Of a stretch of DNA of 33,492 nucleotides, positions 20,331-24,266 are shown piece after piece. The notes beneath the pieces were generated by a model that was not told the origin of the DNA, did not search any database, and worked only from the letters and a program-made list of their open reading frames with translations. Location of the stretch: NCBI GenBank assembly GCA_030065775.1, contig JASJDL010000010.1, positions 1 through 33,492 on the forward strand. Direction: 5' to 3'. The translations under genes were made by a program, and so were the position numbers. Source of the DNA: Flavobacteriaceae bacterium. Its GTDB lineage: Bacteria > Bacteroidota > Bacteroidia > Flavobacteriales > Flavobacteriaceae. Positions within the stretch are counted from its first letter, which is position 1, and each line of letters begins with the position of its first letter.

Positions 20331-21107
20331 TCATTCTTTTTGATCTAGAATTGCTTTATTTAGATATGAAGCTATTATACCGCCGAGCATTGGCGATAAG
20401 ATATACACGGTTAAAAAACTAAAGCGTACAGCGGGAAATGCAGCTGATTTCCAACCGGCAAAATAGGCCACAATCCTGGGGGAAAAATCGCGTGCAGGAT
20501 TGAATCCTCCCTGGGTAAAAGGTGCAATCAGACATATTAAAATCGTAACCGTCAGGCCAATCAATAATGGAGTCGCATTGTTGAGCTGCTCAGGTTTTTC
20601 TGTCACTCTGAAGATCACAAATACCAATAGAAAGGTGCCCAGGCCTTCGAGAAAACACGCCTGAAGATATGATACTGAGAATTTTTCCGCGAAAGTGGGA
20701 TTCGGGAAATATTCACCAAACATCATCGCTGAGCGATATGAATACGTGCTCCCTCTTAGAATTCCGTTGACTTCTTCATAATTTGCAATGGCAGTATTAA
20801 ATATCAGAAATAAAAGCAGTCCACCGACCAAAGCACCTAGAAACTGGGCTATCAGATAAAAAGGTAATTTTTTAGGTCTAAGTTGTTTGGCAAAGACCAT
20901 CGCAACACTGACTGCAGGATTTAGATGAGCCGGACATATATTTCTAACCGCAAAAATGGCCATAGCCACTCCTAATCCAAAAATAAGCGCTACACCCAAA
21001 AGGTTGAGGGCTCCGAACACTACAGAAACAGCTACAGCGCCACATCCAAAAAAAACAAGCAGTAAAGTCCCTAGGAATTCCCCTACGTATTCTTTAAAAA
21101 AAATCAT
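20331..21107 (-). CDS. MIP family aquaglyceroporin (GlpF/AqpS-like)
   Basis: Six TMs; two NPA boxes HLNPAVS and GGFNPARDFSPRI (Asp after Arg as in glycerol-facilitator types); located in an ars-type gene set. Confidence 0.88.
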   Translation of the reverse strand: MIFFKEYVGEFLGTLLLVFFGCGAVAVSVVFGALNLLGVALIFGLGVAMAIFAVRNICPAHLNPAVSVAMVFAKQLRPKKLPFYLIAQFLGALVGGLLLFLIFNTAIANYEEVNGILRGSTYSYRSAMMFGEYFPNPTFAEKFSVSYLQACFLEGLGTFLLVFVIFRVTEKPEQLNNATPLLIGLTVTILICLIAPFTQGGFNPARDFSPRIVAYFAGWKSAAFPAVRFSFLTVYILSPMLGGIIASYLNKAILDQKE

Positions 21108-21109
21108 TA

Positions 21110-21748
21110 TTAAATAATGCTGGAGAAGATATAATACATTTCTGTAGCAATTTGCTGGCTACGTTCGTGGTATTTTTCCGCTTGTTGAGGTGTATCATCG
21201 AATGCTTTCGGGTCTTCATATGTAATGGTTACTCGTGTTTCGGCTCCCGATATAACTGGACAATTTTCATCAGCATCAGAACATGTTAGTATTGCCGCAA
21301 AATCAGATTTTGGGTTTAACGCATGATCAAACGTTTTTGAAAAACCGATCACAGGATATATACTTTCCCCAAATTTAATGACATACACCGGATTGTCACC
21401 CTGAGAAATTTTGGTGATCTCAAAACCAGAATTTTCTAATGTCTCAACCACTTTTGGAAATAAGGCAGTGGCTTCAGTTCCGCCGGAGTAACAAAAGACG
21501 TTACGAACACCAAAATACCGGGCCATAGTCTGTGCCCAAACCTGAGATAAATGACTTCTCCGAGAGTTGTGAGTGCAAATAAAATTCAATCGAATATCTT
21601 TTTTAAAGTCTACCCTATTCTGAATATAATGAACCAAAGGTTTTAATAGTACTTTACGGTCTTCGCTTAAGCTTAAGGGATCTAAATTCGATATAGTATT
21701 TTTGAGCTCACCAAAAAGCTTCGTCTTATTTTTCTTTTTAATCTTCAC
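21110..21748 (-). CDS. arsC: LMW-PTP-type arsenate reductase-like protein (longest ORF starts at 21796)
   Basis: P-loop ICTHNSRRS (CX5R) and LTCSDADENCPV Cys pair; in-frame GTG at 21748 avoids the 28-nt overlap of the longest ORF with its upstream neighbour. Confidence 0.82.
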   Translation of the reverse strand: MKIKKKNKTKLFGELKNTISNLDPLSLSEDRKVLLKPLVHYIQNRVDFKKDIRLNFICTHNSRRSHLSQVWAQTMARYFGVRNVFCYSGGTEATALFPKVVETLENSGFEITKISQGDNPVYVIKFGESIYPVIGFSKTFDHALNPKSDFAAILTCSDADENCPVISGAETRVTITYEDPKAFDDTPQQAEKYHERSQQIATEMYYIFSSII

Positions 21749-21768
21749 AAACGAATTATTACGTATTG

Positions 21769-22257
21769 TTAACAACAAGCAGACCCAGAGCAGCATGTGT
21801 CATCTGCGGTAACGAGCGTTTGACTTGGCGCTCCAAAAGCGTCCTTGGCTTTACAATCTGTTTGAGAAACAAATAACTGTATTATTGTTTTATCTGAAGT
21901 TAATTTTACGTTATGAATTTCCAGATTTGCTTTGTGAAACAGCTCATTACTATATTCAAAAAACACCTGTGACCCTTTATCAATTTTGTGAATTTTATCC
22001 ACTTTTTCAAGGATTGATAAGGCCTTCTTTGAAGTCATATATTCGACTTTATCAATTTCTTTCGGACTTTCCCAAAGCTGAATGATGGTTTCATTCCAAT
22101 CATCCGATCTGCCTCCGCAATCTACCGATTTTATAGTTGTATTCTTTACTTCGGTGATATGATAATTTGCACCAACATAGGTGCCATCTTTGTACTCAAA
22201 TAGCAATTCCTTTTCGCCGTGTTCTTTTAAAATGTTTAAAAATTCTTGTGTTTTCAT
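21769..22257 (-). CDS. DUF6428-like protein with Cys-rich C-terminus
   Basis: MKTQEFLNILKEHGEKELLFEYKDGTYVGANYHITEVKNTTIKSVDCGGR...W.ETIIQLW; ends TCCSGSACC. Confidence 0.7.
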   Translation of the reverse strand: MKTQEFLNILKEHGEKELLFEYKDGTYVGANYHITEVKNTTIKSVDCGGRSDDWNETIIQLWESPKEIDKVEYMTSKKALSILEKVDKIHKIDKGSQVFFEYSNELFHKANLEIHNVKLTSDKTIIQLFVSQTDCKAKDAFGAPSQTLVTADDTCCSGSACC

Positions 22258-22269
22258 ACTTATTATTTT

Positions 22270-22839
22270 TTAACAACAAACTATTTTTTTTCGCAATCGG
22301 TTCCAGGTGTCTTTTCCAGGAGGAAAAAGCAATAAAACATGAATTAAAGCCAAAATAATCGCACCTGGAATTATATTCACAGCAACAAAACTAAAAATAT
22401 CCCTGCCAAGGGAATCAGTTAGTTGTGTATTCATTAGAATCTTGTTTTCACTAACGGTCAGTTTAGTGCCTATTATCAGAATTATAGATGCAAAATGAAA
22501 TGCATTCGCAAATAGATGTATGATATACTCCCATTTAGGTAGACCTCCCATAAAAGCTCTACTATCCGCTTCTGAATAGGCATCTAACGCAAGTACAACC
22601 AAATCTATTATAACGATAACAGCGCCTATCACAAGGCTTACTTCATTATTCTCAATAAACAAAAGCCATACAATTACAGGAAATAACATGGCTCTCAAGG
22701 CGTGAATTTTATGTTCGAAGAGACTATCTTTTCTATTAAACAATTTATATTTAAAAATATGAAGATAAAAGCCATCATAGGTAGCCAAAATCATAAATAG
22801 TACGAGACAAAAAGTGCCTAGAAAATATAGCGTTTCCAT
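22270..22839 (-). CDS. Uncharacterised ~5-TM membrane protein ending in Cys-Cys
   Basis: 189-aa ORF, hydrophobic segments, C-terminus RLRKKIVCC; tightly packed between arsN-like and DUF6428-like genes. Confidence 0.75.
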   Translation of the reverse strand: METLYFLGTFCLVLFMILATYDGFYLHIFKYKLFNRKDSLFEHKIHALRAMLFPVIVWLLFIENNEVSLVIGAVIVIIDLVVLALDAYSEADSRAFMGGLPKWEYIIHLFANAFHFASIILIIGTKLTVSENKILMNTQLTDSLGRDIFSFVAVNIIPGAIILALIHVLLLFPPGKDTWNRLRKKIVCC

Positions 22840-22848
22840 AATTTATAT

Positions 22849-23346
22849 TTAATCTATTCCTACCGTTTTACTTCTTCGTTCCATTAAAACATTATTATAC
22901 CAGGTATCCCCTAACTTTCCTATTCTTTCGCGATAGCCTATTGTTCTGAAACCTAGTTTTTTATGTAAATTAATGCTTGCAATATTTTGAGGAAAGATAC
23001 CGGATTGTAAGGTCCAAATACTTTCTTGTTCGCTTTCGGTTATTAAATGTTCGAGCAATTTAGAACCGATTCCTTTTCCTTGAAATCTGGTATGTACATA
23101 AACACTTACTTCTGCCACGCCACCATACACACAACGGCTTGATACAGGTGATAAGGCCGCCCAGCCTACCAATTGATTAGCTATCCAGGCTGCCAGCCTG
23201 CACATCTTTAAATGTGAGGCATTCCACTGGTCCCACGATGGAACTTCAGTCTCAAAAGTGGCCACTCCGGTTGCAATTCCATCTTTGTAAATCGACGAAA
23301 CATTAGACCAGTCTTCAGCGGTTATATGTTTAATTTCTATACTCAA
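22849..23346 (-). CDS. GNAT N-acetyltransferase, ArsN/phosphinothricin acetyltransferase-like
   Basis: ITAEDWSNVSSIYKDGIATGVATFETEVPSWDQW...AEVSVYVHTRFQGKGIGSKLLEHLI...LHKKLGFRTIGYRERIGKLGDTWYNNVLMER; TTG start. Confidence 0.82.
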   Translation of the reverse strand: MSIEIKHITAEDWSNVSSIYKDGIATGVATFETEVPSWDQWNASHLKMCRLAAWIANQLVGWAALSPVSSRCVYGGVAEVSVYVHTRFQGKGIGSKLLEHLITESEQESIWTLQSGIFPQNIASINLHKKLGFRTIGYRERIGKLGDTWYNNVLMERRSKTVGID

Positions 23347-23362
23347 ATCGTAATTTTACGAT
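23347..23362. promoter_or_regulatory. Candidate ArsR operator 2 (between arsR and the arsN-like gene)
   Basis: ATCGTAA-TT-TTACGAT: perfect 7-bp arms, 16 bp total, directly abutting the TTG start. Confidence 0.6.
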
Positions 23363-23380
23363 AATTATTTTCAAATTTTT

Positions 23381-23713
23381 TTAGCAACACTGTATTCCTC
23401 CGAAATCTTGTTTAAACAATGTGTCAAAAAGCTCCTTAGCCTTTTGCCAACTCTCCTGATGAATGCAATAGCGTATTTTAGGTGGATTCACCTCACCCTC
23501 TATCAAACCGGCATCTTTTAGCTCTTTTAAATGTTGCGAAATCGTTGATTGTGCCAATGGCAATACATCGACGAGATCGCCTGTGTAGCAACAACTTTGA
23601 TTGCTCAAATGTTTTAAAATCACCAATCGAACAGGATGCCCTAATGCCTTGGCGTAACGTGCCAGTTCTTTTGACTCCTCTGAATACTCAATATGCTGTA
23701 AAGTTTTATTCAT
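23381..23713 (-). CDS. arsR: ArsR family winged-helix metalloregulator
   Basis: YAKALGHPVRLVILKHLSNQSCCYTGDLVDVLPLAQSTISQHLKELKDAGLIEGE; C-terminal GGIQCC. Confidence 0.92.
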   Translation of the reverse strand: MNKTLQHIEYSEESKELARYAKALGHPVRLVILKHLSNQSCCYTGDLVDVLPLAQSTISQHLKELKDAGLIEGEVNPPKIRYCIHQESWQKAKELFDTLFKQDFGGIQCC

Positions 23714-23718
23714 AGTTC

Positions 23719-23734
23719 ATCGCAAATATACGAT
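23719..23734. promoter_or_regulatory. Candidate ArsR operator 1 overlapping the arsR -7 box
   Basis: ATCGCAAATATACGAT, 13/16 identical to the 23347-23362 palindrome; contains TATATTTG on the minus strand (23723-23730). Confidence 0.65.
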
Positions 23735-23770
23735 TAATATTTAAATTGCAAAATTTTGCCTTAATTTTCC

Positions 23771-23778
23771 TATGTTTG
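23771..23778 (+). promoter_or_regulatory. -7 promoter element upstream of the DoxX-like gene
   Basis: TATGTTTG, exact TAnnTTTG match. Confidence 0.45.
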
Positions 23779-23834: not shown

Positions 23835-24266
23835 ATGCACGACCAAATAAAAACCTCACGCACTCAAAACATTTTTAGAATTCTGTTGGGCTGTTTTATG
23901 GTATATGCCGGTATCAGCCATCTCACTTTTAACCGGATTGACTTTCAGGCACAGGTACCAGATTGGGTGCCGTTAGGTAAAGACTTAGTGGTGTTAACAT
24001 CCGGAGTCATTGAAATACTCTTGGGGCTTTCGATTCTCTTTTGGACGAAGCAACGTGTAAAAGTCGGTTTTGCATTGGCATTGTTTTTTGTAGCAATCTT
24101 TCCCGGGAATATATCGCAATATTTGAATGGTACCGATGCCTTTGGTGTTTTGAATTCAGATAGGGCAAGATTCATTCGGCTATTTTTTCAACCCGTATTG
24201 ATCGCCTGGGCGCTATGGTCAACCGGTGCCTGGTCGGCATGGATACATCGAAATAAAAAGAGCTAG
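23835..24266 (+). CDS. DoxX-like small membrane protein
   Basis: RILLGCFMVYAGISHLTF...VPDWVPLGKDLVVLTSGVIEILLGLSILF; 4 predicted TMs. Confidence 0.75.
   Translation: MHDQIKTSRTQNIFRILLGCFMVYAGISHLTFNRIDFQAQVPDWVPLGKDLVVLTSGVIEILLGLSILFWTKQRVKVGFALALFFVAIFPGNISQYLNGTDAFGVLNSDRARFIRLFFQPVLIAWALWSTGAWSAWIHRNKKS

Follow-up and report, generated by a model that had tools for sequence, protein, structure and literature searches.

Two predicted ArsR operators flank arsR in a Flavobacteriaceae ars locus, the downstream one a candidate natural roadblock

The ars locus and its two palindromes

The window analyzed here, the whole 33,492-nucleotide stretch of DNA from a Flavobacteriaceae bacterium, contains on its minus strand the gene arsR (positions 23381 to 23713), followed by a series of genes that could be involved in arsenic resistance. 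The 110-amino acid product of arsR is an ArsR/SmtB repressor with the recognition helix Q55-S-T-I-S-Q-H, recognized as an ArsR-type winged HTH protein by the Pfam profile HTH_5 (PF01022; 47.5 bits, cut-off 22) and as a metalloregulator by the NCBIfam profile NF033788 (63.1, cut-off 55). The next gene, with a TTG start (22849 to 23346, minus strand), encodes an N-acetyltransferase that scores 128 bits against NF040503 (ArsN1 family A), below the cut-off of 170, and is accordingly kept as arsN-like rather than assigned to ArsN1. Four putative operon members in the same orientation occupy positions 20331 to 22839, namely a 189-amino acid membrane-like protein that matches no Pfam or NCBIfam profile (22270 to 22839), a DUF6428 protein (21769 to 22257; PF20001, 143 bits), an arsenate-reductase-like, or ArsC-like, protein of the LMW-PTP type (21110 to 21796; a partial match to TIGR02691 of 42 bits, below the cut-off) and an aquaglyceroporin-like, MIP-family (aquaporin-type) channel (20331 to 21107; PF00230, 151 bits). 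Neither an ArsB nor an Acr3 pump was recognized among the putative ars operon genes scanned with Pfam and NCBIfam profiles. On the other side of arsR, a divergent gene for a DoxX-like protein (23835 to 24266) shares the promoter region with arsR; TATGTTTG at 23771 to 23778 could be the -7 box of this gene and lies clear of the ArsR site described below.

Two 16-bp palindromes bracket arsR. The first, ATCGTAATTTTACGAT (23347 to 23362), has perfect 7-bp arms, whereas the second, ATCGCAAATATACGAT (23719 to 23734), is imperfect, with six of its eight pairs matching; the two copies are 372 bp apart and identical at 13 of 16 positions. This agreement and both sets of coordinates, given in an earlier note on this DNA, proved exact when checked against the letters of the window. 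Because arsR lies on the minus strand, the copy at 23719 to 23734 is the upstream one, and we denote it O1 (ATCGTATATTTGCGAT on the minus strand); the copy at 23347 to 23362, denoted O2, reads ATCGTAAAATTACGAT on the minus strand. O2 begins 18 nt past the arsR stop codon, and the TTG start codon of the arsN-like gene (23346) follows it without a gap. A 10-bp A/T tract, AAAAAAATTT, runs from the arsR stop codon (23373 to 23382, minus strand) and belongs, together with O2, to the downstream module.

Within the window, a loose version of the motif, with up to three mismatches, is found eight times, a number that is reached in 19 of 100 shuffles. Given that this comparison was unconvincing, genome-wide and comparative tests were used. 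The genome scan that the earlier note had proposed found the strict pattern ATCGYNNNNTTRCGAT at only two positions in the whole assembly (2.84 Mb, approximately 80% complete), and these are the two sites that flank arsR. About 1.6 matches per assembly are expected from base composition; both observed matches fall within 400 bp, around one gene, the product of which is expected to bind them.

Conservation and specificity of the operators among Bacteroidota

The comparison set was built from 80 relatives of ArsR, to which members of the genus and the family were added, yielding 115 non-redundant loci. In the first set, the pattern TCGYN6RCGA occurs upstream of arsR in 68 of 81 loci and downstream in 37 of 81; the background amounts to 21 matches in the other 546 kb of locus DNA. 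Both palindromes are thus conserved in orthologous intergenic regions, the finding on which, according to the earlier note, the proposal depended. On the strength of this conservation and the restriction of the motif to a single locus of the genome, the assignment of both sites to the ArsR operator type is borne out: the two palindromes are almost certainly ArsR operators, and the ArsR of this organism is predicted to bind both O1 and O2.

The downstream operator is present in 64 of the 115 non-redundant loci, across many Bacteroidota, with Lutibacter oricola and Sunxiuqinia elliptica among the cultured carriers, and its position is nearly fixed, with a start between +17 and +22 nt past the arsR stop codon in 61 of these 64 loci and at exactly +18 in 37. 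An A/T tract of at least 7 bp follows the arsR stop codon in 92% of the carriers, compared to 16% of the non-carriers and 16% of 355 control genes. The genes behind the downstream operator belong to at least five unrelated families (Thioredoxin_3, ArsN-like GNAT, LMWPc, DUF6428 and FmdE), which indicates that the site travels with arsR rather than with any one target gene. The operator is absent from the remaining 51 relatives, including close ones from the same genus, and is therefore not essential.

The operators of the relatives come in two flavors, ATCG..CGAT and TTCG..CGAA, and the upstream and downstream copies share the flavor in all 28 loci that have both. The flavor corresponds to residue 55 of ArsR, where the recognition helix begins: all 71 ATCG loci encode Q at this position, and all 41 TTCG loci encode either K or R. 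On the ArsR tree this change maps as a single switch, so that the match between residue and flavor counts as one event rather than many; nevertheless, it amounts to a two-flavor operator code tied to a single residue of the recognition helix.

Two additional features were noticed in the TTCG-type loci. Many of these contain a third operator of the same flavor approximately 1.1 to 2.1 kb past the arsR stop codon (loci L044, L052, L059, L064, L074, L076, L079, L080, L083 and L090). An extra half-site, ACGAA, is located at +2 after the downstream palindrome in 18 of 24 loci of the TTCG type, L052 and L075 among them, and at the same position after 8 of 34 upstream copies of this type.

The downstream operator is distributed patchily, its presence changing 28 times by our count on the ArsR tree, which could be taken to mean that O2 is a functionless relic, for instance, of a promoter duplication or of the shuffling of an arsR cassette. 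The tree (115 rows, 110 columns), however, has poor resolution, so the count is probably inflated by misplaced rows, and the perfect arms of the copy in the window, the fixed offset, the linked A/T tract and the matching flavor in two deep clades all argue for selection. We therefore consider a relic highly improbable.

Promoter elements and the proposed role of O2

On the minus strand, O1 reads ATCG-TATATTTG-CGAT, that is, a 16-bp ATCG-N8-CGAT palindrome of the Arsenicibacter rosenii type located in the arsR promoter, and its center is a full Bacteroidota -7 box (TATATTTG, 23723 to 23730, minus strand; consensus TAnnTTTG). A -33 element, TTTG, is found 18 nt from this box (23749 to 23752, minus strand). 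The suggestion that the upstream copy encloses the -7 box of arsR thus holds in the window and extends to 68 of 69 upstream ATCG-type sites (with at most one mismatch), among which TTTG peaks 18 to 20 nt ahead of the palindrome, which leaves 18 to 20 nt between the two promoter elements. At the upstream operator of TTCG-type loci, the -7 box usually precedes the palindrome immediately, on its 5' side. Either arrangement is compatible with repression by occlusion.

The downstream copies are organized differently. The O2 of the window contains no TAnnTTTG and no such box paired with a -33 TTTG at 17 to 23 nt, the arrangement by which a second promoter would be recognized. With up to one mismatch, TAnnTTTG is found in 8 of 40 downstream ATCG-type copies, as opposed to 68 of 69 upstream ones, and the exact motif is absent from 38 of these 40 downstream regions. 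Furthermore, in five members of the genus (the window and four relatives), the operator adjoins the start codon of arsN, leaving no room for a promoter.

These observations bear on the possibility that O2 marks another promoter under ArsR repression, from which arsN and the downstream genes would be transcribed independently of arsR. The placement of O2 ahead of the next gene does resemble the upstream arrangement; TAnnTTTG lies inside the palindrome in 6 of 24 TTCG-type downstream copies, so that loci of this type may contain a weak internal promoter; and in 3 of the 64 downstream copies a -7 box is accompanied by a suitably spaced -33 TTG. A sigma-70-like match, TTGAAA-16-TACGAT, also ends in O2, but such matches in this region are as frequent as expected from shuffles, and a promoter that adjoins the TTG codon would place the transcription start at or inside arsN. 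With the promoter grammar largely missing, an internal promoter at O2 was rejected as a candidate, and we regard it as unlikely. The second control point postulated in the earlier note between arsR and the resistance genes is supported by the conservation of the site, whereas the transcription start implied between arsR and arsN is not supported. If arsR is indeed uncoupled from the resistance genes, a block of read-through appears more likely than an internal promoter.

A different type of explanation, that O2 acts as RNA, with a hairpin past arsR causing attenuation or masking the start codon of arsN, draws on the 6-bp stem that the palindrome can form beside the latter codon. The predicted fold, however, is no better than that of shuffled sequences (-4.3 kcal/mol, z -0.07), and O2 is not followed by a U-run or any terminator that could be found there, so a hairpin or terminator was rejected. 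Given that it would also leave unexplained the match of O2 to the upstream operator in both sequence and flavor, a role in RNA can hardly be credited.

Cooperation between O1 and O2, with ArsR dimers or tetramers bridging the two sites, looping out arsR and raising the occupancy of O1, would make use of two sites of the same class, 372 bp apart in the window and 334 to 383 bp apart in 27 of 28 two-site loci. However, ArsR/SmtB proteins are generally dimers, so bridging of two sites is unlikely, and the distances between the centers of O1 and O2 show no helical phasing (R 0.18 to 0.25, p 0.17 to 0.42), on which grounds a loop of this kind was rejected. Although looping can reinforce weak roadblocks (PMC10310618), we consider it even less probable at this locus than a second promoter.

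With no room for a promoter, no terminator character and no helical phasing, the layout that remains is that of a roadblock operator, that is, an operator within a transcription unit and without a promoter of its own; O2 corresponds to this description on the assumption that arsR and arsN are co-transcribed. We thus propose, with a probability of about two in three, that O1 and O2 are operators of the adjacent ArsR and that O2 is a natural roadblock, or insulator, rather than a second promoter. The position, conservation and shared specificity of the two sites and the lack of promoter elements at O2 are read directly from the sequences, and it is from these that we infer the roadblock and the read-through of the operon. 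Under this scenario, ArsR bound to O1 would cover the -7 box of the only recognizable promoter and block initiation until released by trivalent arsenic, and ArsR bound to O2 would be an obstacle to any RNA polymerase that escapes O1. Leaky transcription, which is needed to maintain some ArsR in the cell, would then cover arsR and mostly halt before arsN and the other resistance genes; arsenic would clear both O1 and O2, allowing the whole operon to be read. Such an arrangement would address a general problem of autoregulated repressors, which require slight expression although the leak also reaches the genes behind them: a second operator immediately past the repressor gene would solve it.

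A simple roadblock accounts for neither the A/T tract nor the constancy of the 18-nt offset. RNA polymerase occupies approximately 15 to 18 bp of DNA in front of its catalytic center; a roadblock at +18 would therefore stop the enzyme at about the end of arsR, a coincidence that is suggestive only. As a tentative extension, to which we give slightly less than even odds, the arsR stop codon, the A/T tract of 7 to 10 bp and the operator at about +18 could constitute a portable Bacteroidota cis-module that insulates any following gene from the leak, with the distance between stop codon and operator tuned such that the polymerase halts on finishing arsR. Because the two-operator layout is conserved across Bacteroidota, the roadblock idea can be examined in natural settings, and the module might supply ready-made parts for low-background sensors in these bacteria.

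Comparison with known systems

The closest characterized counterpart of O1 comes from the same phylum. DNase I footprinting and EMSA of ArArsR from Arsenicibacter rosenii SM-1 (Zhang et al., 2025; PMC11868830) identified an operator of the O1 class, ATCGTAATATTGCGAT, upstream of arsR; the protected region, TTTTATCGTAATATTGCGATCACAATC, contains the O1-class 16-mer when compared with the sites described here, and the footprint also spans a 3' ACAAT extension that is present in the relatives analyzed in this work. These experiments lend independent support to ArsR as the protein that binds sites of this class. For the A. rosenii arsRMC operon, one promoter and one site were described and no second operator was reported (PMC11868830), in contrast to the two sites found here. 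The conserved cysteines differ as well: the As(III) ligands in A. rosenii are C41, C80 and C82 (PMC11868830), whereas the present ArsR has C41, C42 and C83 and lacks an equivalent of C80, the apparently corresponding position 81 (R in this protein) being occupied by K or R throughout the 77 relatives. C42 and C83 are invariant in 77 of 77 relatives and C41 is found in 74 of 77; this set (CC...YC) is possibly another variant of the As(III) or MAs(III) site. Four loci of the comparison set, chosen by motif only, serve as stand-ins for ArArsR (L109 to L112; CxC...CYC type, operator ATCGTAATATTGCAAT).

Natural roadblocks formed by repressors are known for PurR, GalR, CcpA and CodY, which bind past the start site and stop the elongating polymerase, and ArsR has been named among the roadblock proteins (PMC10310618). 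Unlike the sites of these four regulators, the site described here is located directly past the repressor's own gene and would part the regulator from its targets. The ars operon of E. coli R773 is likewise autoregulated, with arsR as the first gene, but its ArsR operator is described upstream only, and the site ahead of the output gene was engineered (PMC3918153). Our literature searches, which covered few subscription papers, turned up no natural case of a second ArsR site located between the repressor gene and its targets.

The arrangement most similar to the one reported here was built by synthetic biologists for arsenic sensors. In the E. coli biosensors of Stocker et al. (2003), as summarized in PMC3918153 and PMC3690029, two operator copies flank arsR, the second one lying between arsR and the output gene; the second site downstream of arsR reduces the background of the reporters (PMC3918153), and this drop is attributed to the blocking of read-through (PMC3690029). 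The roadblock effect of a second ArsR site is known only from the engineered E. coli system and is proposed for the locus described here, where, in contrast to the biosensors, the arrangement is natural, widespread and characterized by a fixed offset of 17 to 22 nt and an A/T tract. If the portable module tentatively suggested above exists, it would be the phylum-wide natural counterpart of the engineered second site.
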